From NCBI RefSeq assembly GCF_002153605.1, contig NZ_JOPG01000026.1:1-64000 (forward strand): DNA of 64,000 nucleotides. Direction: 5' to 3'. Shown piece after piece: positions 27,044-43,104 of the stretch (positions are counted from its first letter, which is position 1; each line of letters starts with the position of its first letter). Source of the DNA: Acetobacter malorum. Its GTDB lineage: Bacteria > Pseudomonadota > Alphaproteobacteria > Acetobacterales > Acetobacteraceae. Below the pieces are notes generated by a model. The model did not search any database and had not been told where the DNA came from. It saw only the letters and a list, made by a program, of their open reading frames with translations. The translations under genes and the position numbers were made by a program.

Positions 27044-28315
27044 TCAAACGCGCCCGAGCCGATCCGCCAGCCGCCCCCACACAATGCGGCCTGCTACACC
27101 CATTTTCCAGGCAAAATGCCCCATAATCGGTTTAACCGGAGTTGGCGGAAACAGCGGCGTCCCCTCCCCCGTCACAGAGTGCGCAATGTTCTGCCCCATG
27201 ACCGTCGCCATGGCCACGCCCCGCCCGTTATAGCCCACACAGGCCAGCAAGCCCGGTTCTGGCTCATGCCAGTGCGGATAATGGTCCAGCGTGATACCCA
27301 GTTGCCCGTTCCAGCCATGGGTCCAGCTGATATCACGCAACTCTGGCCAAAGCGTCAAAGCCCGCTGCATCAGATACGGAAAAGCCGAAGCCCCCTGTAA
27401 ATGATGAGAATAGGACCGTCCGCCCATCAGCAAACGTCGCTGCGCATCCACCCGGTAGTACGTGGTAATCTGACCCAGTTCATACAAAACTTCATGCTGC
27501 GCCAAAATCCGGGCCACATAGTCATCCGGCAAAGGCGTACTGGCTACAATGCCGCTATGGACCGGCACCACAGACCGCCGCAGCGCATCCCACGCTTTGT
27601 CTGTATAGCCATTCGTTGCAAACAGCAGCTTATCAGCACGCACAAAACCCTGTGCCGTCTGCACCTGCCATGCATCCCCCTGACGACTAAAAGAGGTGAC
27701 CCGCGTTCCTCCATAAAGGTTCGCCCCGGCTTTGACCGCAGCCCGTGCAAGGCCCCGTGTATAAGCCAGAGGATCAATCTGCCCCCCGCGAGCATCCAGC
27801 ATTCCACCGCAATACGAAGCGTTACCGGACCGTGCCTCCATGTCCGCAGGTTCCAGCCATTGCACCGGCCAGCCGCGCGTCAGGCACTCGTCTGTCAGGG
27901 CCCGCAAAGGTGCGAGTTGCGCGGGCGCTGTGGCGGCTCTGAGTGTGCCACCTCGCAGGGCCGCACACGCAATGCCGTGCCGCTCAATCAGATTAAAAAC
28001 CAGATTGGGCGCGTTCCAGGCGGCTTCCACCAGAGCTGGCCCGTAAGCAGGGCCAAAATCCTGCTCAACCTGCGAGGGTAGAGGCTTGAGGCCAGGGTTC
28101 ACCTGCCCGCCATTGCGACCGGACGCCCCCCAGCCGGGCTGTTCGGCCTCCAGCACAACCACCTGCACACCTTTTTCAGCAAGGTGAAGTGCGGTCGAAA
28201 GCCCGGTGACACCAGCCCCTATAATGGCGATATCGGCACGCGTGCTGCCATCAAGGGGCGGATAAACCAGACCACCCCCGCCGTCTGCTGCATAAAGGCT
28301 GGCTACAGTGTTCAT
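27044..28315 (-). CDS. puuB: FAD-dependent amine oxidase (gamma-glutamylputrescine oxidase PuuB/OrdL-like)
   Basis: The 423-residue DAO-fold flavoprotein has ADIAIIGAGVTGLSTALHLA (GxGxxG about 33-38) and a FAD-contact segment WGASGRNGGQV typical of PuuB/OrdL. Near the C-terminus it has HGWNGQLGITLDHYPH and ACVGYNGRGVAMAT. Such enzymes oxidise a C-N bond with oxygen, giving an aldehyde, ammonia and peroxide. Its start overlaps the stop of the aldehyde dehydrogenase gene by 4 nt, so the aldehyde made by one is likely used by the other. This pairing is seen in putrescine and other amine catabolic operons; the exact amine is not known. Confidence 0.83.
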   Translation of the reverse strand: MNTVASLYAADGGGGLVYPPLDGSTRADIAIIGAGVTGLSTALHLAEKGVQVVVLEAEQPGWGASGRNGGQVNPGLKPLPSQVEQDFGPAYGPALVEAAWNAPNLVFNLIERHGIACAALRGGTLRAATAPAQLAPLRALTDECLTRGWPVQWLEPADMEARSGNASYCGGMLDARGGQIDPLAYTRGLARAAVKAGANLYGGTRVTSFSRQGDAWQVQTAQGFVRADKLLFATNGYTDKAWDALRRSVVPVHSGIVASTPLPDDYVARILAQHEVLYELGQITTYYRVDAQRRLLMGGRSYSHHLQGASAFPYLMQRALTLWPELRDISWTHGWNGQLGITLDHYPHWHEPEPGLLACVGYNGRGVAMATVMGQNIAHSVTGEGTPLFPPTPVKPIMGHFAWKMGVAGRIVWGRLADRLGRV

Positions 28316-29745
28316 GCGTCCTCGCCGTATCCAATAATGGCTTTGATTTCCAGAAAGTCTGTCAATCCGAAGGAACTACATTCGCGCCCGTTCCCAGACT
28401 GACCATAGCCGCCAAACGGGGCTGCCACAGTCCATGCGGCCCCGTTGATATTCACGTTCCCGGCCCGCAAGCGGCGCGCCACGGCTCTGGCGTGCTTCAG
28501 GTCACCAGACTGAACATAGGCCCCCAAACCATAAGGGGTATCATTGGCAATCTGAATGGCCTGCTCTTCATCATCGTAAGCCAGAATGGACAGAACCGGC
28601 CCGAAGATTTCCTCACGCGAGATAGTCATATCCGGCGCAACATTCCCAAACACGGTGGGCTTGACGTAATACCCTGTTTCCAGCCCCTCCGGTTTCCCAA
28701 GCCCGCCCGTTACAAGGGTCGCTCCTTCTTCAATGCCTTTGGCAATCAGCTTCTGAATCCGGTCATACTGCACAGCACTCACAACCGGGCCAAGCTGCGT
28801 GCTTTCATCCGCCGGAGAGCCCATTTTGAAGGACTCAGCAGTCTTTTTGGCAATCTGCATAGCCTGTTCCATCTGCGCACGCGGCACCAGCATACGCGTT
28901 GGCGCGTCACAGGACTGGCCTGAATTACTAAAGCAGCCTTTAACGCCACGCGTTACGGCATCTTCAAAGTCAGCATCAGGCAGAATGATGTTTGGTGATT
29001 TCCCGCCAAGTTCCTGATGCACACGCTTGACCGTTTCCGCAGCCAGTTTTGCAACAGCAATACCGGCACGGGTCGAGCCGGTAATAGAAACCATATCCAC
29101 ATCAGGATGGCTGGCAATGGCCTCCCCCACTCCGGGCCCGTCACCATTGACCATATTATAAACACCTGGCGGCAGGCCTGCTTCATCCAGAATTTCTGTA
29201 AAGACCAATGCGCTGAGCGGTGCGACCTCGCTGGGTTTCATCACTACCGTGCACCCTGCGGCCAGCGCGGGGGCGACCTTGCACATAATCTGGTTCATCG
29301 GCCAGTTCCAGGGCGTAATCAGCCCCGCAACCCCAACGGCTTCCCGGGTGATCAGAATATCATCCCGCATTTCCTCAAACACGTAGGTTTTCAGGGCTGA
29401 AATCATTTCTTCCAGATGCGCCAGACCGGCCCATGTCTGGCTGTCCCGCGCCCGGGCAATGGGAGAGCCCATTTCCTGAGAAATTGCCTGCGCCATATCT
29501 TCAGAGCGTTTTTTATAAATAACAAGAATACGCTCCAGCACAGCCAGCCGCTCTTCCCGCGTGGTGACGGACCATGCCGGAAAAGCCTTGCGTGCCGCCG
29601 CCACAGCCCGGTTTACGTCTTCGGCTTCCCCAAGGGCGATCGTGCTGCACACTTCTTCCGTTGCTGGGTTGATAACATCCAGCGTGCGGCTACCAACCGG
29701 GTTAACCCACTGGCCGTCATAATAAAATTGCAAAGCATGAGACAT
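28312..29745 (-). CDS. NAD-dependent aldehyde dehydrogenase paired with the amine oxidase
   Basis: The 477-residue aldehyde dehydrogenase has the catalytic Cys in FSNSGQSCDAPTR, the general base in HQELGGKSPNI, and cofactor-site elements ITPWNWPMNQ and VVMKPSEVAP. The ATG at 29745 has AAGGA about 11 nt upstream; a longer frame would add 40 residues without family resemblance. It is the first gene of a two-gene operon with the PuuB-like oxidase and probably oxidises the aldehyde that enzyme releases. It might also handle aldehyde from the TTQ enzyme nearby if that enters the cytosol. Confidence 0.85.
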   Translation of the reverse strand: MSHALQFYYDGQWVNPVGSRTLDVINPATEEVCSTIALGEAEDVNRAVAAARKAFPAWSVTTREERLAVLERILVIYKKRSEDMAQAISQEMGSPIARARDSQTWAGLAHLEEMISALKTYVFEEMRDDILITREAVGVAGLITPWNWPMNQIMCKVAPALAAGCTVVMKPSEVAPLSALVFTEILDEAGLPPGVYNMVNGDGPGVGEAIASHPDVDMVSITGSTRAGIAVAKLAAETVKRVHQELGGKSPNIILPDADFEDAVTRGVKGCFSNSGQSCDAPTRMLVPRAQMEQAMQIAKKTAESFKMGSPADESTQLGPVVSAVQYDRIQKLIAKGIEEGATLVTGGLGKPEGLETGYYVKPTVFGNVAPDMTISREEIFGPVLSILAYDDEEQAIQIANDTPYGLGAYVQSGDLKHARAVARRLRAGNVNINGAAWTVAAPFGGYGQSGNGRECSSFGLTDFLEIKAIIGYGEDA

Positions 29746-29828
29746 GGCGTGCTCGTTCCTTAAAGGATGATATTTTGATCGACCATCAGGGCATTTGTTG
29801 CAATAGTCATACAAACAACCGGGAACTG

Positions 29829-30434
29829 ATGGATATGAAGGCTCTGATACTGGCGCAGGGCACACTGTGGATCATCATGGTGCTGACTGCCGCTGTCGCC
29901 CTGCTGCTGCTCAAACAGGTTAAAGCGCTTTACCGCAAAATTGCGCCCCTTGGCGCTCTGGCTCCGGTCGCCCCCACAGCCTCCCGGCTGGACGCCCATC
30001 CCGAGACAACGCTGAACGGGCAGGATGTTATTATCGGTGGTCAGCGGCCCAGTGGCAGAAAATTGCTGTTGCTGTTTGTCTCCGGCACCTGCCCCATTTC
30101 GCAAAAAATGGTTTCCATCACGCGTGATTTCTGCGTCCGGGAAAAACTCGACCTGCTGTTTGTGGGGGATGATACGCCGCAGGCGCAGGAAGAGGCGATA
30201 TCCACTCTCGGCATCACCCCGCGTGACATGGTCAACTCCGCCACAATCGGCCGCCTGCTGGGGGTGGACCGTGTTCCCTTTGCCGTACTTCTGGCTGCGG
30301 ATGGCACCGTGGAAGCCCGCGGACTGGTCAACAATCGGGAACATCTGGAAAGTCTGCTGAGCGTCATGGAAACGGGCCACAGCTCCATTCAGTCTTTTCT
30401 GGAAGCCAACCCGCATGCTCTTTCGCCCTCTTAA
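29829..30434 (+). CDS. MauD-like thioredoxin-fold membrane protein with incomplete CxxC
   Basis: The 201-residue protein has one N-terminal helix (about 8-28) and a periplasmic thioredoxin-like domain similar in layout to the MauD at 31,971. The redox motif reads CPIS (Cys88 to Ser91), where the other MauD has CPVC. The start is ATG 29829 with GGGA 5 nt upstream; the TTG at 29775 lacks support. It is transcribed against the amine dehydrogenase operon, overlapping its last gene by 4 nt, and is divergent from the ALDH/PuuB pair. MauD proteins help form disulfides in the small subunit. A single-Cys version may bind or isomerise rather than oxidise (inference). Confidence 0.7.
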   Translation: MDMKALILAQGTLWIIMVLTAAVALLLLKQVKALYRKIAPLGALAPVAPTASRLDAHPETTLNGQDVIIGGQRPSGRKLLLLFVSGTCPISQKMVSITRDFCVREKLDLLFVGDDTPQAQEEAISTLGITPRDMVNSATIGRLLGVDRVPFAVLLAADGTVEARGLVNNREHLESLLSVMETGHSSIQSFLEANPHALSPS

Positions 30435-30934
30435 CGGGGGCACTGCGCCGCAGCGCGGGCCAGCACCTCGGCCCGTAAGGCCAGAAGATCAGTTGAGGCA
30501 ATGGCCTGTGCACGTAAGGTATGAATTTCCGCAGCCGTAAAAGGCTTGGTGCCCATTGGCGTGCTGGCACCGCCCATGCGAAACAGCACAAAATTCATGA
30601 CATCCGCCAGCTCCTGATCATCCCGGATCAGGGACATGGAAACACCGGGCACCCGCCCGATGTAGGCCCGCCCCTCCGCAGAGCAGGCAAATGTGCCGAC
30701 ATGGTCTCGCAAAATCGGCACAAACGTGCGGGCTGAAACACCCTCAATCCCGTGGCACCCACCACAATGGGTCAGATAGTTTGTGGTGGCATGGTCCAGT
30801 AGCGCGGCCTGCGCTCCGGGAGACATATCAGCACAGAACAGAAACGCGGACACCGCCCCTACCAGACAAAGGATACGTCTGGCAGGCCGCAGCGTGCGTC
30901 CCCCTACAACATTACGGAATAGGGTGTGCAGCAT
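30431..30934 (-). CDS. Monohaem c-type cytochrome, last gene of the amine dehydrogenase operon
   Basis: The 167-residue protein has an N-terminal signal (arginine-rich start, hydrophobic 21-35, cleavage near AQA-A). It carries one haem c site CGGCH (57-61), with a likely axial Met downstream (MNFVLFRMGG). The ATG at 30934 lies inside the 3' end of the preceding cytochrome gene (23-nt overlap), indicating coupling. It probably takes electrons from the TTQ dehydrogenase or passes them on. It has a single haem motif, so it is not a MauG-type dihaem enzyme. Confidence 0.75.
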   Translation of the reverse strand: MLHTLFRNVVGGRTLRPARRILCLVGAVSAFLFCADMSPGAQAALLDHATTNYLTHCGGCHGIEGVSARTFVPILRDHVGTFACSAEGRAYIGRVPGVSMSLIRDDQELADVMNFVLFRMGGASTPMGTKPFTAAEIHTLRAQAIASTDLLALRAEVLARAAAQCPR

Positions 30935-31385
30935 TCAGCGCATTCCGTTCAGCCTGCATTTCCGGTCCCTTTTTAGGGGTCGCGCGAGCGGCCTTTACAT
31001 CATCAGCCGTAATGGTCGGGGCCGTTGAGGTATCCCCCAAAGACGCAATGTAGGTCAGCACGGCCGCAATATCGTCATCAGAAAGCGCTTTCAGAGACGG
31101 CATAAACCCGGCATAGGCAGCGCCCCCGGCCTGAATGGGCCCATGCAAGCCATTCAGCACAACATCCATCAGGTATTTCTTGCCTTCAGGCGTGGCTGCA
31201 ATTTTATCAATCCGGTTTTTCAGAACAGGAAACTGGCCCGGCATCCCTGCCCCACCAGCCTGATGGCACACGGAGCAGTTGGTGTTGTAGACCGTCAGCC
31301 CATCGGATGCGGCGTGGGCAGAACCCGCCAGAACCGGAGCCGCGGCAAGAACACCAGCCAGAAGACGTAAACCGTGTTTAATCAT
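30912..31385 (-). CDS. Monohaem c-type cytochrome, probable electron acceptor of the amine dehydrogenase
   Basis: The 157-residue protein has a clean Sec signal (cleavage near AHA-A), the haem site CSVCH (37-41) close to the mature N-terminus, and the class I cytochrome c motif MPSLKALSDDDIAAVLTYIASL with a likely Met ligand. The ATG at 31385 overlaps the mauA stop by 4 nt. Electron transfer from TTQ enzymes runs through amicyanin or azurin to cytochrome c in other bacteria. No cupredoxin gene is visible here, so direct transfer to this cytochrome is a reasonable inference. Confidence 0.82.
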   Translation of the reverse strand: MIKHGLRLLAGVLAAAPVLAGSAHAASDGLTVYNTNCSVCHQAGGAGMPGQFPVLKNRIDKIAATPEGKKYLMDVVLNGLHGPIQAGGAAYAGFMPSLKALSDDDIAAVLTYIASLGDTSTAPTITADDVKAARATPKKGPEMQAERNALNAAHPIP

Positions 31386-31984
31386 GATGCATTCCCAACA
31401 ATAACAGAAGTCGAACAATTATAGATCAGTGCGCCTGTACCAAAGCACCAGATGATATCATTATTGGCCTGAGGCCGGTAGCTTGGCTGGTCACCCTCCG
31501 TGCCAACGCACATGGGCTGGCTACACGCATCTTGTCCGCAACAGTCCCGATACGCAACAAGGTAGGACTGCCCATCTCCGGGGTTAAAGCAGGTGCCAAT
31601 CCATGAGGTCGGGGACGGGCTGGTCCCCGGTGGGCAGCTATGAACACCACCGCCGCAGGACGCACACAGGAACCCGTCAATCGCGCAATAACGCCAGTAA
31701 TTACAGGCCGTAGCGTCCGTCGTCTGCGCATCAGCAGCAAAGGGCGTGGGGGCCTTGAATTTGGGTTTAGCCGTCTGCGCGGCGGAAGCCCGCTCAACCG
31801 GCAAGGTCGGGATCAACGCCCCAAACGTCACCCACGCGCCCACACGCCCCAGCAAGCCACGGCGGGAGCTGTGACCCGCCACATGACGGGTGAAACGCTC
31901 AATCGTGCGGTCCAGCAGGCTGTGTGCTGTGCCCTCTTTTTCAGCGCGCGCTCCAGACCGTGCGGACACATCAGACTGCAACAT
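31382..31984 (-). CDS. mauA: TTQ amine dehydrogenase small (catalytic) subunit
   Basis: The 200-residue protein has a twin-arginine signal (SRRGLLGRVG at 40-49). Its mature part aligns closely by eye with Paracoccus MauA. Both TTQ-forming tryptophans are present: Trp128 (PTSWIG) and Trp179 (NDIIWCFG), corresponding to Trp57 and Trp108 of Paracoccus. The catalytic and crosslinking aspartates are conserved as Asp103 (AIDG) and Asp147 (YRDCCG). All twelve cysteines of the six-disulfide fold can be counted after residue 90. It oxidises a primary amine to aldehyde plus ammonia in the periplasm. It overlaps mauD by 14 nt and the first cytochrome gene by 4 nt. Whether the substrate is methylamine or an aromatic amine is not decided by this subunit. 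Confidence 0.93.
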   Translation of the reverse strand: MLQSDVSARSGARAEKEGTAHSLLDRTIERFTRHVAGHSSRRGLLGRVGAWVTFGALIPTLPVERASAAQTAKPKFKAPTPFAADAQTTDATACNYWRYCAIDGFLCASCGGGVHSCPPGTSPSPTSWIGTCFNPGDGQSYLVAYRDCCGQDACSQPMCVGTEGDQPSYRPQANNDIIWCFGTGALIYNCSTSVIVGNAS

Positions 31985-32564
31985 GAGAGGTCTCCTTCAT
32001 TTGGGCCGGACGTGCCTGCGGCAACGTGGCAACCAAAGCTTCAATTTCGCGGCGGCTGCTGGCAACGTCCCGCGCCGTAATGACACCACGGGGGTCAAGC
32101 ACCACCAAAGTCGGCAAACGGCCAATCTGCACCAGCAAAAGCAGTTCCATACTCACAAGCAACGGCACACCCTCAAGCGGCGTCCGCTGCGCCATGGCGG
32201 AAAGAGCGGTGACATCGCCCTCTCCTATCAGAACCAGATCAACGCCATGCTCCTGCGCTACCCCACGCGCCACAGGCAGCGCCCGCTTACAAACGGGGCA
32301 ATCCGCAGAGACAAACATCAGCATCACGGCGCGGCCAGTTGCACTGGTCCCCCCAATGGCAACTGGCGCATCGGCCAGCGTGCGGGCTGTAACCTGCGGC
32401 AGCGCCTGTCCGGCCTGCAAGCCAGACAGAACCGGCTGCACGCCAATAGGGGCCAGTCTCTCATGCAGCACACCAATCTGGCGGGCCAGCACAAACACAC
32501 CCAGCGCCAGCCCAAGTGTAAAAACTGTCAGCAATAATGTAGAAACTGTGAGAATAATCAGCAT
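31971..32564 (-). CDS. mauD: MauD-type disulfide-forming protein for the amine dehydrogenase
   Basis: The 197-residue protein has an N-terminal helix (about 3-27) followed by a thioredoxin-like domain with an intact CPVC motif (89-92). Known MauD proteins are required for correct disulfide formation in, and stability of, the cysteine-rich small subunit. It lies directly between mauE (1-nt overlap) and mauA (14-nt overlap), the classical mauEDA order. Confidence 0.9.
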   Translation of the reverse strand: MLIILTVSTLLLTVFTLGLALGVFVLARQIGVLHERLAPIGVQPVLSGLQAGQALPQVTARTLADAPVAIGGTSATGRAVMLMFVSADCPVCKRALPVARGVAQEHGVDLVLIGEGDVTALSAMAQRTPLEGVPLLVSMELLLLVQIGRLPTLVVLDPRGVITARDVASSRREIEALVATLPQARPAQMKETSHVAV

Positions 32565-33088
32565 CAGCTCAGCGCCTCCGACCCTGTAAGAGACGCCGTT
32601 GCCACGCAGAGCAGCAAAAGGGAAACGCCCATAAGCAACCCTTCAACACACAGCAGACCAAACTCCGGCTGACCACACAGCCCTACCAGAAAAACCAGCA
32701 CCGCCAGCGCCACATTACGGAACACAGAAGCCCATGACAGACGCGCATCCACACCCGGAATGCATCCGCAGGACAGATGAGTGCGGCCCCGTGCCACATT
32801 GATCCCCATCGCCCCTGCAAACACCAGCAGCAGTACGGCCGAGACCAGTCCAGCCGCCAGTGTGGCTGCACCGGAAAACAACCATATCCCCAAAAGGGTT
32901 TCCGTCACGATAATGGCGTAGGCAGCGGGGAACGCCGCATCCAGCGGCAACAGACGATAGGCTGCAATATCTGAGGCAAACCGGGCGCTGTCTGTAGCCT
33001 TCCCAATCCCCGTGAACAGGAACAGCGCACCAAACGCCCCGCTCCCTAACGCCCCCAGCATGTGAAGTAAAAGACTATGCACGCTCAT
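32564..33088 (-). CDS. mauE: MauE family membrane protein for amine dehydrogenase maturation
   Basis: The 174-residue protein has four to five hydrophobic helices. It has the MauE/DoxX-like first helix with LFLFTGIGKATDSARFASDI and a short loop containing CGC (HLSCGCIPGV), probably a redox-active pair facing the periplasm. MauE and MauD act together in forming disulfides of the small subunit. It overlaps mauB by 4 nt. Confidence 0.88.
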   Translation of the reverse strand: MSVHSLLLHMLGALGSGAFGALFLFTGIGKATDSARFASDIAAYRLLPLDAAFPAAYAIIVTETLLGIWLFSGAATLAAGLVSAVLLLVFAGAMGINVARGRTHLSCGCIPGVDARLSWASVFRNVALAVLVFLVGLCGQPEFGLLCVEGLLMGVSLLLLCVATASLTGSEALS

Positions 33089-34290
33089 TCACCCAGCGCG
33101 ATGGTGAAGTAGAGGTCATCACCAAGATGCGGCATCTTGTGCAGTTGCTTCCCGCTTTTCATGTCCCAGATAAACAGATCACCCGCATTGTCGTTGGTAA
33201 ACAGGAGCGGCTTGTCATCCTGCGTGACCCCCACCATCGTGGCGGGCACAGGCAGAGGAATACGGCGCACAAGTTTATGCGTTGAAGTATCCAGCTCCCA
33301 GATTTCCGTGCCTGCCTTTTTATGGGTCCAGAACGTCCCTTCATGCATCAGCACAAACAGGTGTCCGCTGGCATAATGCAGTGCGGATAACTGCCAACCA
33401 CCCGGACGCCATGTTTTGGCAAAAGGCGCTTCAGCCGCAGGCGCTTTTTTCATGCCGGCTGCTTCCTGGATAGACCAGGGGGCCTCCACCTTGCTATCGG
33501 CTGAAAGTGCCGTGGGATAGACAAGCCCGCTGTAGGAAATAAACCACGTTTTGCCATCAGGCCGCCGGGTGGGGCTGTGTTCAAAAACAGCATCCTTCTC
33601 CGGATCAAAAAACGGCTTGGTATGTACAACCTCCGCTTTGCCATTCTTCAGGCTGACATTGGCAAGACCACCGTCCGCACAGATGGACGTAAACCCGTCA
33701 TTCCCCCACGGATAGGCCAGTGCACACCCCGGCAAATCAACCGTCTGGCTGACCTTATGCGTAGCTGTATCCACAACATGCACGGCATTAGTCGGCACCA
33801 TGGAAAACACATAGACCCGCCCGCCATCCTGACTGATAGCAAGATCGTTTTTCTTGGGGGTGACCAACGCCCGGCCCGGCAGCACTTCGTCATTGGTAAT
33901 GGTCAGCGTTTGCGGGTCATACGCGGGCAAAAGGTCAAGACGATCGCCGCGATTACCGCGTGACCAGACCGTCTCCGCGACATAAAACGCCCGGCCCCTG
34001 GGGTCCTGCACCACGTTGCCGTTATAGGCCGCCTGCACCATGCCCAGCAGCTTGCCCTTGTCTGCATCCACCACGTAAATACGGCCATCCTTAGCGTGCG
34101 TGCCCGCAGTATCCTGCACCAGAATACGATGCGGCGTGACCGGAGAAAGCTTAATAATGTCGCTTTCTTCTTCCTGCACAACCGGCTCATCTGCCCACGC
34201 TTTAAGGGACGCCACGGAAGACGCTCCCAGTGCCACAAGACCCAGCACGAGAGCCGCCGTGCCAGACCGGAGAGCTGTGGAATAGCGCAT
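33085..34290 (-). CDS. mauB: TTQ amine dehydrogenase large subunit (beta-propeller)
   Basis: The 401-residue protein has a Sec signal (1-33, ending AWA) and then a seven-bladed propeller with repeated YVVD/VHVVDTATHK/WELDTSTHK blade strands. Landmarks shared with known large subunits include DGRIYVVDADKGKLLGMV, ICADGGLANVSL, TWRPGGWQL and the HEGTFWTHKKAGTEIW stretch, the last closer to aromatic amine dehydrogenase than to methylamine dehydrogenase. The start at 34290 has AGGGG about 9 nt upstream. With MauA it forms an alpha2beta2 periplasmic enzyme. The permease gene lies 68 nt upstream on the same strand. Confidence 0.9.
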   Translation of the reverse strand: MRYSTALRSGTAALVLGLVALGASSVASLKAWADEPVVQEEESDIIKLSPVTPHRILVQDTAGTHAKDGRIYVVDADKGKLLGMVQAAYNGNVVQDPRGRAFYVAETVWSRGNRGDRLDLLPAYDPQTLTITNDEVLPGRALVTPKKNDLAISQDGGRVYVFSMVPTNAVHVVDTATHKVSQTVDLPGCALAYPWGNDGFTSICADGGLANVSLKNGKAEVVHTKPFFDPEKDAVFEHSPTRRPDGKTWFISYSGLVYPTALSADSKVEAPWSIQEAAGMKKAPAAEAPFAKTWRPGGWQLSALHYASGHLFVLMHEGTFWTHKKAGTEIWELDTSTHKLVRRIPLPVPATMVGVTQDDKPLLFTNDNAGDLFIWDMKSGKQLHKMPHLGDDLYFTIALGE

Positions 34291-34358
34291 AAAATCAAAC
34301 CCCTTGGCTGATAAAGCAGATGAATACGCAGCAACACTGCGCAGGGAGAAGAAGAGTG

Positions 34359-35684
34359 TCATTCTCTGGCATCGGACGCAACGCTCCCGCAACGAAGTTT
34401 TATCCAACCACCCAGCGTAATCAGGCACAGGGCCACCGCCCCCACAGCCAGTTCATGCCGTGTTTCCGGCGCGCCAAGCATGGAGAGCAAAACGCCCACG
34501 AGCATGACAATAGCCAGCCACCCCTTCCACGCGCCCGACCGATATAACCGCAACCGCGCACAGACAATGAGGAGATTATAGACCATGATGAATGCGCCCG
34601 TTGTGGCTACCAGAAAGGCAAACACAACACCCGGGGAGAGCACGGCAGTCGCAGAGACCAGCAGCGCCACGGCAGAACTGGCCAGCACAGCCCGACGCGG
34701 CAAATGCGCCCGGGGAGCCATGACCTGCAGGGCACGCGGCACGTCTCCCCTGCACGCCATTTCATACACCACGCGGGATGTGGCGTATAAACCGGAATTG
34801 AGCGTGGACAAGGTTGCCGACAAAATGACCAGCGTCATCACCGTACTGGCATACGGCACATGAAAGCGTTCAAGCGTGAGGAGAAAAGGAGAGACCCCAC
34901 GCACAGTCTCTGACCATGGCATCAGGCACAAAATCAAGGTGATTGAACTCAGGTAAAACACCAGCAACCGGAGTGCGACCGTACGCGTAATACGGGCAAT
35001 ATTGCGGTCCGGGTGGTCTGATTCCAAAGCAGCAATGGTCGCGACCTCACTCCCCGTCATGGAAAACAAAGCCGTGGGCACTGCCGCCAGAAAGGCAAAA
35101 GCCCCCAGCGGCATAAAGCCACCATGCCCAAATAGGTTCTCCGTCACAGGGACAGAATGTCCACCCAGCAACACAACACCAATCACAACAAACACACAGA
35201 GTGCCGCAACCTTTATGAGAGCAAACCAATACTCACATTCACCGTAATTTCTGACAGACATCAGATTAATCGCGGTCATGACGGCAAGAATGACAATTTC
35301 AATAACTGCATACGGCACAGGCACATAAGGCGCGATGAGAGACGCTGAGGCGATAACTTCCACCCCAAGCGTTGTGACCCATACCGCCCAATAGACCCAA
35401 CCGGCCACAAACCCGGGCAACGGCCCCAGCGCATGCCGGATCTGGCTGACAAAAGACCCATGCCCCGGCGCGTGCAAGGCAATGTCCCGCAGCATGATAT
35501 TGACCAGAAAGACGATCAGCCCGGAGAGAGCATAAGAAATCAGGACACTCGGCCCAGCCGTCAGGATAGCACCCGAAGAGCCAATAAAAAGCCCCGCGCC
35601 AATCACGCCACCAAGAGAAATCATGGTGATATGGCGCGGCCTGAGGCTATGAGCCAGTTGGGAGCTAGGCGTCGGGGCAGTCAT
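34359..35684 (-). CDS. APC-family amine/amino-acid permease (GabP/ProY-like)
   Basis: The 441-residue protein has 12 helices and the APC signature RPRHITMISLGGVIGAGLFIGSSGAI at the first helix (about 16-41). GSEVATIAALESDHPDRNIARI follows helix 6, as in the amino-acid transporter group. The ATG at 35684 has GGGGAG about 6 nt upstream. It precedes mauB by 68 nt on the same strand, so it is probably in the operon, importing an amino acid or amine related to the dehydrogenase substrate. The substrate is an inference from position. Confidence 0.83.
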   Translation of the reverse strand: MTAPTPSSQLAHSLRPRHITMISLGGVIGAGLFIGSSGAILTAGPSVLISYALSGLIVFLVNIMLRDIALHAPGHGSFVSQIRHALGPLPGFVAGWVYWAVWVTTLGVEVIASASLIAPYVPVPYAVIEIVILAVMTAINLMSVRNYGECEYWFALIKVAALCVFVVIGVVLLGGHSVPVTENLFGHGGFMPLGAFAFLAAVPTALFSMTGSEVATIAALESDHPDRNIARITRTVALRLLVFYLSSITLILCLMPWSETVRGVSPFLLTLERFHVPYASTVMTLVILSATLSTLNSGLYATSRVVYEMACRGDVPRALQVMAPRAHLPRRAVLASSAVALLVSATAVLSPGVVFAFLVATTGAFIMVYNLLIVCARLRLYRSGAWKGWLAIVMLVGVLLSMLGAPETRHELAVGAVALCLITLGGWIKLRCGSVASDARE

Positions 35685-35810
35685 GGACGCTCCCCTTCAG
35701 CCCGATACTGCCCATGTCCTGAAAGCTCCCACTCACCTTCCCCACTCATCCTGCGTGATGCCATGCGGACCTCAGCATTGTTGGGTTGGGGAAAGGCCTT
35801 CATCACAGCG

Positions 35811-38294
35811 TCAGAATTCCGCGCTGACAGTGCCGAAGAATTCGCGCACCGCCCCACGTTCCAGAGACTGATAATCTCCTGACATAGGGTTACCGTTCTG
35901 CCCCATCATGGAGATGTATTTGGAGTTGAACAGGTTGTAGACATTGAAATCCACCGAGAGGTTTTTGGCAAAACCAACTTTCCCAAAGTTATAACGTGCC
36001 CCTGTGCTGGCCAGCCAGTAGCCCGGCACAGACGTATCATTCACATAGCTGTAATAGCGCTTTGAATAATAGTGCACATCAAAATGTGTCTCGAGCCCTT
36101 TCCAGCGATAAGACAGATTAGCCTTATACATAAACTGCGGAAAGTTTACGATCTTCTTACCTTTGGTGTAATAAATACCATCTGATGTAGTAATATTTCC
36201 GCCATATGTCGAGTGATTATAGCTGACACTATTATAGATTGCCAGCCCTTTGATGGGCGTAAGCGTAACGGCGGCATCCACCCCATTTGTATGCACCGTG
36301 GTTGGCACAACGGTGGAAACAGGAGCCAGAATAGTGCCTTCCGTTGCAGCCTGAAGGCGATTTCTGGCATCCGCATGATATCCGGCCAGACTGGCCTGTA
36401 TCAATTTATCGGTATAGCGATACCCGACTGCGTAGACCCAGTCTTTTTCAGGCGAAACACCATGCTGGAGCTTTTTGAAAGCATCCTGATCCTGCACAGA
36501 CCAAGGAGAATTCCCAACCCCGTTTGGCAGAACCTGATAAGTCCGCATATTCTCCGCAAGATCAAAATAGAATTCATGATTTTTCAGGAAGCGGTAGCTC
36601 GCGCCAACATGGGGCAGAAATGCGCTGGACGCCGTCATACTCCCATTGGGCAGCGCATCAACGCCGGTATAATCTGAATTGTTATAGGTCGCACCACCAG
36701 CCGTCGTCGCCAGAACGGATTTAAAGCCTGCGGTCACACGCAGGTTCTCAACAGGACGCCAGGTATCCTGCAAATGGAACGCAAAGTTATTGGTTCTCCA
36801 GTTAAACCCATACCCCTGCTGGAACGCTTTGCCATAGGTATTGTATGGGCCAACCGTTTTCAGAGGGGCACCCTCTCCTAACGTTGGCTCATTATACCAG
36901 AACAGCCCGGCTTCCTGATTATTGTTTTCATACCAGACGCCGGTATCAAGACTATGGTTGGCAATTTTGTAAAGGAAGCTGCTTGTAAAACCATACCGCT
37001 CCTGCCGGTTCTGCCAGACTTCCTGTGAAAATGGCGCTTCTGTATCAGCAGAGGGCGTCGACGTATCAGAATACGTATAATACCCGGTCTGGCTGGTGCC
37101 ATAAAGATTAGTGCGCCAGCGCAGCCGTTCCGTCAGAGCCAGATCAAAATTCAGGCCGCCCGTGTAGTTGGTCTCCTGCTGGCCACCGTCATACAGATAG
37201 GGCTCATCCCCATTGGCCTCAATGGCATCCGTGGTCGGAAGAGAGATATTTCCGGCAACATAATTATAAGCTTTTGCGTAATTAGGATAAAGATGCGGCG
37301 TGCGCCACCCAAGTCCTTTCAGCATTGCCAGAGACGTATCCCAATAGTTCCACTCCGCCAGGTCGCTCCAGTTGAAGAACGCCTTCATGACGCTTTCATG
37401 CCCGATAGGCTGCACCAGCTTGGCATCGACCTGTTGTTGAAACTGGGAGCCACCTCCAGCCCACATCCCTTCATCCGAGCGGGAATAGGCTGTCATAAAC
37501 TTGGTACCTGTGCTGTTCAGCTTGCCACTATCCAGCCGCGCGTACGTCCGGAAAGAGCTATAGCTGCCAAACCCCTGAGAAACTTTGCCCCCTAGCTGGT
37601 CTTTAGGGTCTGCGGTTTCAAACTGCATTGTCCCACCCAATGTGGACGTGGAGGGCACATTAACGCCACCCGGCCCTTCCGAGATGATACTACGGTCAAT
37701 ATCATCAGAAATTGCTGCCTGAATGATGTTCAGCCCGTTATTGCTCTCATAGGTCTGGTCATTCAGCGGAATACCATCCAGCGTCACGCCAAGCTGATCC
37801 ATAAAAAACCCGCGCACATAAATACTGGCACCCCACAGGTCGATCCCCAGAGGGTCGGTCGAGCTGAAACTGACCCCGGGCAGGCGGTCCGCTGCTTTCA
37901 GCACGGACGTACCGGGCGTGAACTGCTCCATGACAGCCTTGGACACCACATTGTCCGCACCGCGTGAAACGCTACGATGAGAGCTGACCTCAAGCGCTTC
38001 ACTCCCACCCTGCACCGGCCCATGATCCCGATGCCGTGCAACAGGTGCCGCTGCTCCGGCAGCACGGCCCGCAGGCACATGAGAGGCCTTAGACACGCCA
38101 CGCACAGGCCGCTTACCCCGGGGCGTATGATGTGCCTGCGTAGATACCGGCGCAGAAACCTCACCCGTCGCCGCTTTTGCGGAATCTGGTGCAAGCAGCA
38201 CCGGCATTGTTAAAGCTGAGAATGACAATGCACATCGAAGAGGCAGTTTGCGGCGAGACGTGACCACATCTGCAAGTTTCTTTTTTCTGCTCAC
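35811..38294 (-). CDS. TonB-dependent outer-membrane receptor upstream of the amine operon
   Basis: The roughly 827-residue protein has a GTG start at 38294 with GGAAG upstream, a basic N-terminus and a signal peptide ending near KAATG. A low-complexity Ala/Pro/Arg/His linker follows, then the plug domain (MEQFTPGTSVLKAADRLPGV, IYVRGFFMDQLGVTLDGIPL) and a 22-strand barrel ending in aromatic Phe (GTVSAEF). No STN signalling domain is present. It is co-oriented with and 126 nt upstream of the permease gene, and is the first gene of the leftward unit. The ligand is unknown. A role in amine, metal or cofactor uptake linked to the operon is possible but unproven. Confidence 0.85.
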   Translation of the reverse strand: MSRKKKLADVVTSRRKLPLRCALSFSALTMPVLLAPDSAKAATGEVSAPVSTQAHHTPRGKRPVRGVSKASHVPAGRAAGAAAPVARHRDHGPVQGGSEALEVSSHRSVSRGADNVVSKAVMEQFTPGTSVLKAADRLPGVSFSSTDPLGIDLWGASIYVRGFFMDQLGVTLDGIPLNDQTYESNNGLNIIQAAISDDIDRSIISEGPGGVNVPSTSTLGGTMQFETADPKDQLGGKVSQGFGSYSSFRTYARLDSGKLNSTGTKFMTAYSRSDEGMWAGGGSQFQQQVDAKLVQPIGHESVMKAFFNWSDLAEWNYWDTSLAMLKGLGWRTPHLYPNYAKAYNYVAGNISLPTTDAIEANGDEPYLYDGGQQETNYTGGLNFDLALTERLRWRTNLYGTSQTGYYTYSDTSTPSADTEAPFSQEVWQNRQERYGFTSSFLYKIANHSLDTGVWYENNNQEAGLFWYNEPTLGEGAPLKTVGPYNTYGKAFQQGYGFNWRTNNFAFHLQDTWRPVENLRVTAGFKSVLATTAGGATYNNSDYTGVDALPNGSMTASSAFLPHVGASYRFLKNHEFYFDLAENMRTYQVLPNGVGNSPWSVQDQDAFKKLQHGVSPEKDWVYAVGYRYTDKLIQASLAGYHADARNRLQAATEGTILAPVSTVVPTTVHTNGVDAAVTLTPIKGLAIYNSVSYNHSTYGGNITTSDGIYYTKGKKIVNFPQFMYKANLSYRWKGLETHFDVHYYSKRYYSYVNDTSVPGYWLASTGARYNFGKVGFAKNLSVDFNVYNLFNSKYISMMGQNGNPMSGDYQSLERGAVREFFGTVSAEF

Positions 38295-38477
38295 GTCTGT
38301 TTCTTCCACTTTAAAATGCCGGACAGGGCAAGGATTAAAACGCTTTGCTACGTTCAGGTGACCCGGCAAGGCCTCTGCGCAGTTCGCCGCAGGATGTGAA
38401 CTTTCTTGCACAGATACAAAACAGATCAGGCGCCAGAAGCACCTTACAGGTCCCACAAGAAACGTTTCATTTATGTG

Positions 38478-38506
38478 ATGATATGGAGAACAGTGCCATA
38501 TCGCAA
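38478..38506 (-). promoter_or_regulatory. Leftward sigma-70 promoter of the TonB receptor/amine operon
   Basis: On the reverse strand TTGCGA (38506-38501) is followed after exactly 17 nt by TATCAT (38483-38478). The -10 matches consensus at five of six positions, the -35 at four of six. Confidence 0.55.
38480..38502. promoter_or_regulatory. Candidate operator of the PuuR-like regulator
   Basis: GATATGG (38480-38486) and CCATATC (38496-38502) form a perfect 7-bp inverted repeat with a 9-nt spacer, a 23-bp site. It spans the spacer and edges of both promoter hexamers, so a bound dimer would block RNA polymerase. Confidence 0.5.
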
Positions 38507-38643
38507 CAGTTTTGTATGTTTTTCAAAACCCCGCGGACTGCAACCGTTCTCCACAGCATGCGTTCATTATAAAAAACACTTCAAACACAACGCCGCCCTC
38601 GCAGGTCCCTTTTTTTGCCTCACCCATCCCTCTTGCCAGAGCC

Positions 38644-38649
38644 TATAAT
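38644..38649 (+). promoter_or_regulatory. Consensus -10 box for the PuuR-like regulator gene
   Basis: A perfect TATAAT about 48 nt before the ATG; no matching -35 at standard spacing. Confidence 0.4.
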
Positions 38650-38696
38650 TTTTCATTACGATTAAAAAATATAGAGCAGCGAAAGAATCAGACGTT

Positions 38697-39239
38697 ATGG
38701 ATGTTGGCGGCACACTTTACGCTTTACGCACACAACGCGGACTGTCCCAGCGCGAACTGGCAAGACGCTGCGGCGTTGCCAATGGCACAATTTCACTGAT
38801 TGAATCCAACGCCATCAATCCTTCCGTCGGACTGCTTCGCCAGATTGTCCATGCTCTGCCTATGAATTTATCTGAATTTTTTGCATTCGAGCATCTGGAA
38901 GAGCGTAAGCTTTTCTACCGTGCGTCTGAACTGCGGGAAATTGGCGGCAAAGGGATTTCTTACCGCCAGATTGGCACCAACCTGAATGGTCGCGCCTTAC
39001 AAATGCTGGATGAAGTCTACGCCCCCCGCACAGATACCGGTAAAACCATGCTGCACCATACGGGGGAGGAAGGAGGCGTTGTCATCAGTGGGGAAATAGA
39101 AGTCACCGTCGCAGACCAGCGCGCCATTCTCGGCCCCGGAGACGCCTACTATTTTGACAGCAATCTCCCGCACCGCTTCCGCAATATTGGCAAGGACCCC
39201 TGCCATATTGTCAGCGCCGCAACGCCCCCTAGTTTTTAA
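38697..39239 (+). CDS. HTH (XRE)-cupin transcriptional regulator, PuuR-like
   Basis: The 180-residue protein has an N-terminal XRE helix-turn-helix (LYALRTQRGLSQRELARRCG, then NGTISLIESNAINPSVGLLR). The C-terminal cupin domain (MLHHTGEEGGVVISGEIEVT, ILGPGDAYYFDSNLPHRFRN) is the architecture of PuuR, the repressor of putrescine catabolism. It is divergent from the TonB receptor/amine operon and convergent with the aldehyde dehydrogenase genes, overlapping their last gene by 11 nt. It is the best candidate for the regulator of the amine region, with an amine or aldehyde bound in the cupin pocket (inference). Confidence 0.87.
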   Translation: MDVGGTLYALRTQRGLSQRELARRCGVANGTISLIESNAINPSVGLLRQIVHALPMNLSEFFAFEHLEERKLFYRASELREIGGKGISYRQIGTNLNGRALQMLDEVYAPRTDTGKTMLHHTGEEGGVVISGEIEVTVADQRAILGPGDAYYFDSNLPHRFRNIGKDPCHIVSAATPPSF

Positions 39240-40479
39240 AGGCAGACGGTTTGATCTCTGTCTGCGTATTGCCAAAATGGGCCAGCACATAAGAGGCAAT
39301 GGCCGCCAGCTCTTCCTCTGTATAGGCCTTTGAAAAACCGGGCATAAAAGCACGTCCCCGCCCGGTTTCAAGCGCCGTGCCGTCGCTCAAAACCTGCACC
39401 AGGTTATCTGCGGCCGGGTCTGACACACTATGCGCTCCAGCAAGCGCTGCCCACTCAGACTGTCGGCCTCGTCCATCCGGCAAATGGCACCCGGCACAGG
39501 CCTGCGCAAAAAGCCCCTGCCCCCTTCGTGCCGTTTCACTTAAGGCATGGTCTGGGTCGGTAGCCATAGTCTGCGCTACCGGCCCTTGGGCAATGGGAGG
39601 AAGACTACGCAAATACGTAACCATGGCCGCAATATCAGTTTGCGTCATATAGCGCAGACCATGCTCCACAGCTTCTGCCATCGGGCCTGATGCCGCCCCT
39701 TTGCCGCTTGCTTTACCGGTCGAAAGGTATGAAGTCAGCTGTTCGTCTGTCCAGCCGCCCAAACCGTGCTGTTTGTCTGATGTCAGATTATAGGCGCGCC
39801 AGCCCACCTGTACGGCTCCGGCATAGGCCTTACTGCTCAGGCCATACGTTATGGTTCGGGGGGTATGGCACTGGCTGCAATGCCCTAACGCTTCCGTCAG
39901 ATAAGCCCCGCGGTTCCATTGTTCCGATTGAGCCGGATTGGGCTGGAAACGCTCATTCGGATTATTCAGCCAGTTCCAGAACATCATGCTCCATCGCTGG
40001 TTAAATGGAAAATACAGGGAGTTTTGCGGAGCCGGTGCATTTTCTGGCTTCAGACTAAACAGATACGCCTTGATCGCCAACGCATCCGCATCATTCAGCA
40101 ACGTATACGCCGTATACGGCATAACGGGATAAAGATGCTTTCCTCCGCGCCCCACACCTTCCCGCAACATTTTAAGCCACTCGGCATCCGTGTAAGCACC
40201 AATGCCAGTTTGCTTGTCTGGCGTAATATTAACGGCAAAAATTGTACCAAACGGCAGCGCAAAAGGACGTCCGCCCGTAAGCCCTTTTCCATCCGGCGCA
40301 GCGTGGCAGGCGGCACAATCTGCTGCCCGGAAAAGATACTCGCCACGTTTGATTATCTCCGGGCGCGTATCGGGCCCAGACTCAGGAGCGCTCTCAGCAA
40401 AAGCCATGCTACCATGGAAGCAGAGCGTGAAGACTGCCGTCCCTTGCATAACATTTTTCAAATAGCGGAACGACATCAT
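39229..40479 (-). CDS. aldG: Trihaem cytochrome c subunit of membrane-bound aldehyde dehydrogenase
   Basis: The 416-residue protein has a Sec signal (about 10-28) and three haem c motifs: CAACH (55-59), CSQCH (201-205) and CAGCH (328-332). This is the layout of cytochrome subunits of acetic-acid-bacterial alcohol and aldehyde dehydrogenases, which pass electrons to ubiquinone at the periplasmic face. It overlaps the molybdopterin subunit gene by 4 nt. The symbol follows the aldFGH system of acetic acid bacteria; assignment of letters to subunits is from memory. Confidence 0.83.
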   Translation of the reverse strand: MMSFRYLKNVMQGTAVFTLCFHGSMAFAESAPESGPDTRPEIIKRGEYLFRAADCAACHAAPDGKGLTGGRPFALPFGTIFAVNITPDKQTGIGAYTDAEWLKMLREGVGRGGKHLYPVMPYTAYTLLNDADALAIKAYLFSLKPENAPAPQNSLYFPFNQRWSMMFWNWLNNPNERFQPNPAQSEQWNRGAYLTEALGHCSQCHTPRTITYGLSSKAYAGAVQVGWRAYNLTSDKQHGLGGWTDEQLTSYLSTGKASGKGAASGPMAEAVEHGLRYMTQTDIAAMVTYLRSLPPIAQGPVAQTMATDPDHALSETARRGQGLFAQACAGCHLPDGRGRQSEWAALAGAHSVSDPAADNLVQVLSDGTALETGRGRAFMPGFSKAYTEEELAAIASYVLAHFGNTQTEIKPSAFKN

Positions 40480-42653
40480 GCCTTTTCTCCGCCAAGCTGT
40501 TTGGCAAACGGAATGCGACGCAGGCGTTTTCCTGTTGCCGCAAACAGGGCATTTGCCAGCGCCGGAGCCGCTGCAACGGTGCCCACTTCCCCAATACCAC
40601 CAATTTCCGCATCAGGGTCCGAGACCAGATGCACCTGAATATCTGGCGCTTCGTTCAGCCGCATCATGCGATAATTATGAAAGTTGGTTTGTTCAACCCG
40701 ACCATCTTTCAAAGTGATTTCATTATAGAGCGCCATGGTTAGTCCAAAAATGAGGCCACCCTGAATTTGCGCGACAATACCATCGGGAAAGACGACCGGC
40801 CCGCAATCCACAGCGCTGTGTGCCTGAACAAGACGGATCTGCCCATTTTTCTCTACAGCGACTTCCATGACGGTTGCAGCCCATGTCTGAAAAGAATAAT
40901 GGAGCGCGATCCCCATACCATGCCCGGGCGGAAGCTCTTTACCCCAACCGGACTGCTTCTCGACTTCATCCAGAACTTTCAGCGCCCGAGGCTGATGAGC
41001 CGCCAGCTTTTTACGAAGCGCCAGCGGATCCTGCCCGGATTGATGCGCAAGTTCATCAATCATGCTCTCAACAACAAACACATTATGGGTTGGACCGACC
41101 CCCCGCCACCAGAGCGTCGTCACCGCATCGGGTTCATCCCGGACAAATTCAACCAGTTGATCCGGCATCGCATACGGTGTTTGGGCCGCCCCTTCCACCG
41201 CATCAGGGTCAAGACCGTTCTGCATCCCCTCCGGATACCAGCGCGCCGTGACAGATGAACCGGTCGTGCGATGATGCCACCCGCTTAGGGCTCCATCCTG
41301 TGTCAGCCCAGCAGAAATCCGATCATAATAATACGGGCGGAACTGATCCTGCGTGATGTCCTCTTCCCGCGTCCAGATCAGCTTCACAGGATAAGACACC
41401 TGTTTTGCAAAATGCGATGCTTGACCAATAGAATTGGAATCCAGCCTGCGGCCGAACCCACCGCCTATCAGGTGATTATGCACAGCAATAGTCTCTGGAC
41501 GTAAACCCGTTGCATCAGCAACCTCCTGCCGCGCGCGGCCCGGCACCTGCGTACCAACCCAGACATCCGCCCCGTCTGGCCTGATATGCACGGTTGTATT
41601 GATCGGCTCCAACGGCGCATGCGCCAGAAAGGGGAGTTCATAAACGGCATCAATACGCGTATGCGCCTGCTTTAAAGCCTCTAACGCATTGCCGTTTTTG
41701 ACAGCCACAACACCAGACTGTTCTGATGCCTTTTTCATCCGTGCAACAATATCGCCTATCGACGTTGTCGCGTTTGGACCGTATTCCCACTGCGGAAAGG
41801 CCGCTTCCATCCCCTTGATCGCCGCCCACATATGCTCACCTATGATGGCAATGGCATCGGGGAGCGTCAGCACATCGACCACGCCCGGAACTGCCAGTGC
41901 TGCATCCCGATTATAGCCGGTCAAATGACCGCCCTTGACCGGACAGGCCATGATGCGGCCGATTTTCATACCCGGTATTTGGGCATCTATCCCGAACTGC
42001 GCGCTTCCGTTTGTTTTGGCTTTTGTATCCAGCCTGCGCGGGCTGGTGCCAATCAGGGTGAAATCAGAGGCCGGTTTAAGAGCAACTTTTGCCGGCACAG
42101 GCTGATGCATTGCAGCCTCAGCAAGCTCGCCATAAGCCAAGCTCCGCTCATCAGCGGGATGAAAAACCCGCCCGTCCCGCGCCTGACACGCACTTTCCGG
42201 CACTTTCCAGATTTGCGCAGCTGCCGCGACCAGCATCATACGGGCCGCAGCACCTGCTTCCCGCAACGGGATCCAGCTGTCCCTCGTTGAAGAAGACCCA
42301 CCGGTTTCCTCTTCACCGGCCACGCTATCAACATAGGCAGGGTCAGCCGGGGCGGCCTCAACAGACACCTGATCCAGTGTCACGCCCAGTTCTTCCGCCA
42401 GCAGCATGGAGATGCCAGTGTAAATTCCCTGCCCCATTTCTGCATAACGCATAATGAGTGTCACAGCGCCCTGCTGCGTAATCCGAATGAACGCATTCGG
42501 CCTGAACACAACGCCCGTCGCTGTATCCTGCGCCTGAGAGGCTTTTAAAAGGGGTAGGCCCGGCAGAAATGCGGACAACAGAAAACCACCGCCCCCGCTT
42601 AAGGCAGCTCCCAACAAAGCCCGACGGGATGTCGACACGTTTTTAAGCTTCAT
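40476..42653 (-). CDS. aldH: Molybdopterin-binding large subunit of periplasmic aldehyde dehydrogenase
   Basis: The roughly 725-residue protein starts with a twin-arginine-like signal ([17 protein letters not shown]), consistent with export of a folded cofactor protein. It then has the aldehyde oxidase/isoquinoline oxidoreductase fold: [27 protein letters not shown] and [11 protein letters not shown]. Near the C-terminus it has the active-site Glu motif [19 protein letters not shown]. The start at 42653 overlaps the 2Fe-2S gene by 11 nt; the longer frame upstream is rejected. With the 2Fe-2S and cytochrome subunits it oxidises aldehydes to acids. Isoquinoline-type oxidoreductases share this architecture, so other substrates remain possible. 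Confidence 0.87.
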
Positions 42654-43104
42654 GGGAGGCAGCTTTATGAATAGCTTTGCGAATGCGCACATATGTCCCG
42701 CAACGGCAGATATTACCGGCCATGGCCTCATCAATATCTGCGTCGGTTGGCTGAGGAATCTGCTGCAAGAGGGCAGTAGCGGCCATAATCTGCCCGGACT
42801 GACAATAGCCACACTGGATGACTTCCTCATCCAGCCAGGCCTGCTGCACCTTCGCCCCAGTTTCTGTGTGTTCAATCGCCTCAATGGTCAGGATATCATG
42901 CTCGGCAGCAGCAGCGACCGTCAGCAGACAAGCTCTGACAGGCTGCCCATCCAGATGCACAGTACATGCCCCGCACTGCGCCACCCCGCACCCGTATTTT
43001 GTGCCTGTCAGACGAAGAATATCGCGCAGCACCCAAAGCACCGGCATATCTGGCGGCACATCGACCTCGCGTACCACACCATTGATTTTGAGATCAAACC
43101 TCAT
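42643..43104 (-). CDS. aldF: [2Fe-2S] small subunit of periplasmic aldehyde dehydrogenase
   Basis: The 153-residue protein has two iron-sulfur clusters: a plant ferredoxin-type set Cys39, 44, 47 and 59 ([16 protein letters not shown]), and a second set Cys98, 101, 133 and 135 ([17 protein letters not shown]). This is the standard small subunit of molybdenum hydroxylases lacking a flavin subunit. It has no signal peptide and probably rides through the Tat system with the large subunit. First gene of the three-gene operon. Confidence 0.9.

Follow-up and report, generated by a model that had tools for sequence, protein, structure and literature searches.

Introduction

For protein-derived cofactors built by radical chemistry at a distance, MauG, which completes tryptophan tryptophylquinone (TTQ), is the textbook case. 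In most of the mauG clusters that we have seen (Paracoccus, Methylobacterium), amicyanin occupies the slot after the small subunit gene mauA. The aau clusters for aromatic amine dehydrogenase follow another pattern, mauG-less B-E-D-A genes and then a cytochrome. The cluster of Alcaligenes faecalis, reported in 2001, is said to have one or more cytochrome genes after A and to be without mauF, mauG, mauL, mauM and mauN. Here we describe a 64,000-nucleotide stretch of Acetobacter malorum DNA (NZ_JOPG01000026.1, positions 1 to 64,000; hereafter the window) with a TTQ operon, mauB-E-D-A, that is followed by genes for two monohaem cytochromes, cyt1 and cyt2. It has neither mauG nor mauF, a state that is ordinary for TTQ enzymes. 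Of the candidates for the missing function, cyt2, which the original prediction made on this DNA had passed over, is the best linked.

The TTQ operon of A. malorum

The genes mauB-E-D-A-cyt1-cyt2 lie on the minus strand, and adjacent gene ends overlap or touch. The original prediction had named mauB, mauE, mauD and mauA, and these identities were upheld by profiles and by solved structures. The mauB/aauB-like large subunit (33085..34290) consists of a signal peptide and a beta-propeller and matched PF06433 (Me-amine-dh_H, E 1.8e-47) as well as the heavy chains of methylamine and aromatic amine dehydrogenases in the PDB (best E 5.4e-42, down to 6.6e-18); its inferred start methionine is the one chosen previously and corresponds to residue 47 of the longest open reading frame (ORF). 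The membrane accessory protein MauE (32564..33088) matched PF07291 (MauE, E 3.7e-24), and the thioredoxin-like accessory protein MauD (31971..32564) has a CPVC motif at residue 89. The TTQ small subunit MauA (31382..31984) matched PF02975 (Me-amine-dh_L, E 4e-49) and the corresponding PDB chains of methylamine and aromatic amine dehydrogenases (E 2.6e-53 to 1.1e-30), and its leader is of the twin-arginine type as judged by eye. MauA passes the cut-off of the NCBI methylamine dehydrogenase equivalog (TIGR02659, 203.8 bits against 196.85), whereas MauB (TIGR02658, 169 bits against 454) and MauD (TIGR02661, 114 bits against 188.6) fall below theirs. The two genes after mauA, cyt1 (30912..31418, start perhaps at 31385; PF00034, E 7.9e-12), with a Met-Pro ligand motif, and the TTQ-linked, c552-like cyt2 (30431..30934), encode one CxxCH haem motif each, as had been noted.

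Both TTQ tryptophans (W128 and W179), the catalytic aspartates D103 and D147 and the twelve cysteines of MauA, as expected for six disulfides, are all present, in agreement with the earlier claim of an intact small subunit. Among 127 distinct MauA homologues W128, W179 and D147 were invariant, and D103 was kept in 125. Judged from the sequence, mauB-E-D-A with cyt1 and cyt2 is a real operon and looks intact.

The operon shares homologous MauB, MauE, MauD and MauA with the mau operons of Paracoccus denitrificans and Methylobacterium. Unlike in these, no profile match to mauF, mauG, mauJ, amicyanin, napG or napH was found near the window's mauA; mauL was outside this search. The window fits the aau pattern, and its B-E-D-A-cyt-cyt order is also that of a Pseudomonas plasmid locus annotated aauB-mauE-mauD-aauA (L071), in which the aauA label is an annotation and not an assay. 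In a tree of MauA proteins, however, the window's MauA falls in a separate branch from the aauA-annotated protein, with 38-45% identity to three members of the latter's branch. An aromatic primary amine as substrate is a trait of the aau enzymes; in the window, the neighbouring genes hint weakly at a biogenic amine.

Occurrence of mauG-less clusters

The original prediction regarded TTQ enzymes as not usual in the Acetobacteraceae and framed the missing mauG as a peculiarity of one bacterium. Neither view survived a wider sampling. Of 299 genomes sampled from the family, 18, the source genome among them, had TTQ small subunits above the Pfam cut-off, and clusters recur across the acetic acid bacteria. 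In a species collection with at least 593 relatives, 26 of the best 80 loci, ranked by likeness to the window's MauA, were titled Acetobacter, Gluconobacter, Asaia, Gluconacetobacter, Komagataeibacter or Ameyamaea. Two genomes do not enter the counts of TTQ genomes, G122 (22 bits, internal stops) and G594 (about 25 bits over 23 positions), the latter in spite of being narrowly above the family cut-off together with its neighbours.

The window and the family, collection, phylum and plasmid sets together gave 145 mauA loci (127 distinct, some genomes having been entered twice), which were profiled by searches on all six-frame ORFs. It was found that 136 of them (121 distinct) were without mauG and mauF nearby, whereas nine (6 distinct) had both; mauG-less clusters are thus the majority of the sampled loci. 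All twelve clusters examined in the phylum sample were mauG-less. The 136 include one remnant on a Sphaerotilus plasmid (L240, about 6400-7522), where a partial mauA is followed by two cytochrome genes. A further cluster remnant, at L028, has a mauA fragment with several stops.

The MauA tree was built from 50 representatives, and in it the six mauG/mauF loci formed one clade among 44 mauG-less ones, with a support of 99 in the Shimodaira-Hasegawa-like approximate likelihood ratio test (SH-aLRT). The tree was rooted at its midpoint and supported by this quick method, and the mauG set is small (Paracoccus, Methylobacterium and Indioceanicola, all on plasmids). Its topology is compatible with a single late gain of MauF and MauG. 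That the window holds a mauG-less TTQ operon, and that this state is general, we regard as virtually certain.

A monohaem cytochrome accompanies mauA

A cyt2 gene was present on the same strand within 2.5 kb downstream of mauA in 134 of the 136 mauG-less loci, compared with none of the nine mauG/mauF loci. The two exceptions, L101 (2362-4099) and L104 (7781-9531), are extra mauBA pairs without accessory genes. Their genomes each hold another complete B-E-D-A-cyt2 cluster, whose maturation the isolated pairs likely share.

The tie was seen also at the level of whole genomes. Over the 299 family genomes, a cyt2 profile scored 120 bits or more at 29 places, with 43.6 bits for the next best; the 120-bit line was set after this gap had been seen. 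Of these places 28 covered the 18 TTQ genomes precisely, with a copy for each mauA. The remaining one was on a contig of a 66%-complete genome; this contig starts inside the tail of a cyt1-like cytochrome, as judged by eye. Similarly, over 398 phylum genomes the profile (E <= 1e-13, a threshold set after the family result) found cyt2 in the same 11 genomes, and in the same 13 copies, as mauA. Fisher tests on this co-occurrence were extreme, but they ignore relatedness, and the two samples share some genomes. Since TTQ-linked sequences had gone into the profile, what is informative is that cyt2 is absent elsewhere and that the copy numbers are equal. No cyt2 was found in three mauG plasmid records (from the Paracoccus, Methylobacterium and Indioceanicola set) that were searched whole, the chromosomes being outside this search.

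Other linked genes were few. The genes that recurred across 27 diverse mauG-less loci were mauA (27), mauB (26), a cytochrome (26), mauD (24) and mauE (21), and three more recurrent clusters (14, 10 and 6 of the loci) resemble antisense frames. Besides these, no gene was near more than four of the 27 loci. A conserved neighbouring flavoprotein was considered as maturase and rejected, none being among the recurrent neighbours; flavoproteins such as QhpG, GoxB and LodB serve cysteine tryptophylquinone (CTQ), according to PMC7876137. The other cytochrome, cyt1, is optional and directly follows mauA in 54 of the 134 cyt2 loci.

MauG-like proteins elsewhere in the genomes

The original prediction had reported no mauG or mauF in the window and had left two explanations, an unlinked MauG or another oxidant. 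In the source genome (99.89% complete, 111 contigs), PF03150 (CCP_MauG) had no match on the window's contig, labelled C37, and the absence of both genes near the operon was borne out. Genome-wide, no MauG orthologue was found in the PF03150 search, and MauF was not found in a search that recovered two of two positive controls elsewhere.

Three proteins of the source genome were above the PF03150 cut-off, on contigs C63, C23 and C41. The C63 protein has three haem motifs and a Met in the ligand column, and is a Met-type peroxidase. The C23 protein is MbnH-like and shortened (302 aa), with a His in the ligand column. Within the region 2833-6627 of L008, its gene has as neighbours those of a TonB receptor and of a 210-aa protein without Pfam or NCBIfam match, possibly another protein-modifying pair; a search of plasmids with the MbnH-like protein gave 350 records. 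The C41 protein has a Tyr in the column of MauG Y294, which predicts a Tyr-His ligated second haem, and it also keeps the MauG positions that we take to be Gln103, Pro107 and Glu113. It is a homologue of BthA, a protein described from Burkholderia (PDB entry 6nx0, E 6.7e-66, 226 bits, against 110.9 bits to the best MauG entry). Thus, with this Tyr-type dihaem protein in the genome, the part of the prediction that allowed for an unlinked homologue is not empty, although no MauG orthologue and no MauF were found. The function missing from the operon is that of the MauG/BthA/MbnH dihaem family, whose BthA-like and MbnH-like members in this genome are not linked to the operon.

The search with PF03150 was extended to 63 genomes that have mauG-less clusters, namely 50 genomes, twelve from the phylum sample and the source genome. 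No match was found in 19 of the 63 (14 of the 50 and five of the twelve), with MauG being recovered in three of three mauG plasmid records as positive control. Among 27 genomes with a recorded completeness of 90% or more and little contamination, four were without match, and two no-match genomes, G520 and G388, are single contigs and 100% complete. A single Met-type match was found in eight genomes (six named Acetobacter, G169 of the genus Acetobacter, and G476), and a single His-type match in two (G312 and G315). Met-type or His-type proteins only were therefore present in at least 10 of the 63, the ligand reading being incomplete in the remaining 34. MauF was found in none of 30 genomes, in a search that recovered both of its positive controls; a MauF search over 289 genomes of the class gave no match either, which is uninformative alone, the controls having come only in the search of 30.

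Given the 19 genomes without superfamily match and the ten or more with only Met- or His-type proteins, neither an unlinked MauG nor BthA was retained as the general maturase, and for the whole group another oxidant is favoured. The alternative of an unlinked homologue stood in part, through the C41 protein and through the genomes G534 and G712 described below. With most of the sampled TTQ clusters being without MauG, and a good many of the searched genomes showing no member of its superfamily, how TTQ is formed there becomes a chemical question. We found no report of MauG-independent TTQ formation in the open-licence literature, although it may have been published elsewhere. Nor did we see it stated in the searchable open literature that many TTQ genomes lack the MauG superfamily, or that cyt2 is tied to TTQ.

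Sequence features of cyt2 and cyt1

With about 120 mature residues and one CxxCH, cyt2 differs from the dihaem proteins of PF03150, to which it had no match; Pfam gave weak cytochrome c matches. In total 115 cyt2 ORFs were collected, of which those of L039 and L079, with no CxxCH in the ORF, were left out of an alignment of 106 distinct sequences and kept in the 134 loci. Locus L134, which ends at a contig edge, was left out of set A2, with 80 of 81 references given. In an 80-row alignment Cys15, Gly17, Cys18, His19, Pro31, Arg47, Pro54, Asn72 and Arg112 were invariant, and in a 73-row alignment Arg112 was nearly so. The column of the distal ligand was variable, with Met in only 32 of the 106 sequences and otherwise His (22), Phe (14), Arg (8), Thr (8), Leu (7), Gln (5) or other residues (10). 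A class I electron-transfer cytochrome c has a conserved distal Met, and cyt1 is of this kind, its Met-Pro being kept in 52 of 52 distinct relatives above 80 bits. Two extra cysteines of cyt2 co-occur (both in 75, neither in 26 and one in 5 of the 106 sequences), which suggests that they form a disulfide.

The best solved relative of cyt2 was Thermus cytochrome c552 (PDB 1c52, E 2e-23), with a match that extends past the haem domain. Residues 51-72 of the c552 chain stand against only four positions of the cyt2 profile, leaving about 18 c552 residues without counterpart. This stretch includes Met69, which we take to be the Met ligand of Thermus c552, and no conserved cyt2 residue takes the place of that ligand.

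A possible role of cyt2 in TTQ maturation

A small monohaem protein that is tied one to one to the TTQ gene provides a concrete candidate for maturation. In the scheme that we propose, MauD and MauE would fold the exported small subunit and form its disulfide bonds, and cyt2, in place of MauG, would help to complete TTQ at W128 and W179. The haem of cyt2, having no conserved ligand on its distal side, might react with H2O2 or O2; alternatively, cyt2 might take single electrons from the pre-TTQ tryptophans and pass them on to the respiratory chain. Where present, cyt1 would accept the catalytic electrons of the mature enzyme, for which its Met-Pro makes it a likely carrier. The substrate would be a primary amine, and the aldehyde product would go to a neighbouring aldehyde dehydrogenase. 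That cyt2 replaces MauG in TTQ maturation seems to us an evenly balanced proposition, and the likeliest of the explanations considered here. Only tentatively do we suggest the further step, that cyt2 is a single-haem TTQ maturase of a new kind and the majority, perhaps ancestral, solution, with MauF and MauG as a later replacement in one branch.

Several observations weigh against a maturation role. A monohaem protein cannot form the bis-Fe(IV) state of MauG. The window's own cyt2 has a Met (M100) in the variable column and is one of the 32, and the cyt2 of acetic acid bacteria may, by its sequence, be an ordinary His/Met cytochrome. The genome scans for cyt2 scored the best 14 (family) or 10 (phylum) first-look candidates per genome. 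For the genomes without PF03150 match, completeness was given for five of the 19 (G219, G589, G520 and G388, 100%; G178, 89%); most of the other fourteen are named isolates, in which single absences may be assembly gaps. The source genome has its Tyr-type BthA homologue. In six of the twelve phylum-sample genomes (G655, G618, G524, G527, G534 and G712) a Tyr-type dihaem protein is encoded outside the TTQ cluster, and the unlinked proteins of G712 and G534 have 59% and 53% identity to MauG of Paracoccus denitrificans over about 350 residues. Moreover, cyt2 is the only linked cytochrome in 80 of the 134 loci (60%), which have no cyt1 directly downstream of mauA. Linkage is also not proof of function: amicyanin holds the same slot, and cyt2 could equally be an acceptor.

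The last point leads to the strongest alternative, in which cyt2 is the dedicated electron acceptor of mauG-less TTQ dehydrogenases and takes the part of amicyanin. TTQ would then be finished by chemistry that the operon does not encode, such as autocatalysis with a metal or a general periplasmic oxidant. We consider it possible, if somewhat doubtful. It accounts for the position of cyt2 in the amicyanin slot of the Paracoccus and Methylobacterium mauG clusters, for the 80 loci in which cyt2 is the sole cytochrome directly downstream of mauA, and for cytochromes c552 being its nearest solved relatives, but it accounts less well for a variable distal ligand next to the kept Met-Pro of cyt1. It would also leave the operon with no conserved linked gene for maturation past mauD and mauE. 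The Indioceanicola plasmid, with mauG but with no annotated amicyanin and no cyt2 found, slightly favours maturation over an acceptor role; another cytochrome lies upstream there.

An unlinked dihaem protein, of the BthA type (C41) or MbnH-like (C23), could instead complete TTQ in A. malorum. The C41 protein has the Tyr ligand and the three MauG positions named above, and the six phylum-sample genomes with unlinked Tyr-type proteins also speak for the idea. BthA forms a bis-Fe(IV) state and bthA is always downstream of a putative phosphatase, as stated in PMC6405878. Against the idea, the C41 gene (in the region 5610-9576 of L009) likewise adjoins a gene of the phosphoesterase/phospholipase C family and has no TTQ genes near it. 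With seven Acetobacter genomes having mauG-less clusters and a Met-type protein only, and 19 of the 63 genomes having no match, we find this explanation unlikely.

In the two species of G712 and G534 an unlinked MauG is a serious possibility, but it cannot be the general answer. Their MauG-like proteins are encoded on another contig or a megabase away from the TTQ cluster, which in both genomes includes cyt2, and no TTQ gene lies in the 16 kb around them. The gene in G712 is at 7219-8370 of L243; that in G534, at 7528-8661 of L244, stands beside a second dihaem protein and exported proteins, as judged by eye. The substrate of these proteins would be of interest.

Finally, that the operon no longer makes TTQ, its protein being decayed or a cofactor-free relative, would agree with the lack of mauF, mauG, mauJ, napG and napH matches near mauA (mauL being outside the search) but is hardly credible, with overlapping and undamaged genes, intact TTQ residues and cysteines, W128 and W179 invariant in 127 homologues of which 121 are from mauG-less loci, and solved aromatic amine dehydrogenase structures, from a mauG-less cluster, that contain TTQ.

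Genes surrounding the operon

Downstream of the operon, on the plus strand, lies a gene for a second MauD-like protein (29775..30434; TIGR02661, 115.9 bits, under the cut-off), which had been overlooked. Its motif is CPIS, the second Cys being replaced by Ser, and on this ground the paralogue might trap a mixed disulfide. Such replacement (CPxS, in one case CLVS, for CPxC) was found in 33 of 157 MauD sequences, all 33 from loci of acetic acid bacteria. The extra paralogue was dropped as a candidate TTQ maturase, since it is not universal.

Beyond it are an aldehyde dehydrogenase (28312..29865, minus strand; PF00171, E 4.8e-157), which probably oxidises the aldehyde product, and an oxidoreductase dependent on flavin adenine dinucleotide (FAD). 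On the upstream side are an amino acid or amine permease (34359..35684, minus strand; PF00324, E 1.5e-72), which resembles gamma-aminobutyric acid (GABA) permease (TIGR01773, 339 bits, under the cut-off of 678), a TonB receptor and a PuuR-like regulator. Taken together, these predicted functions suggest, weakly, a locus for the use of polyamines or biogenic amines. Within 27044-39239 the FAD enzyme among the operon neighbours is AmaA/pipecolate-oxidase-like, and where NCBI equivalogs were matched their cut-offs were not reached.

Of four loci compared, the nearest DNA was that of Acetobacter persici (one contig, 81-87% over three pieces), followed by A. senegalensis (77-83% over two pieces). 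Further along the window, at 39229-42884, a gene for a three-haem cytochrome is followed by one for a xanthine-dehydrogenase-like molybdenum subunit, an arrangement that is frequent in acetic acid bacteria.

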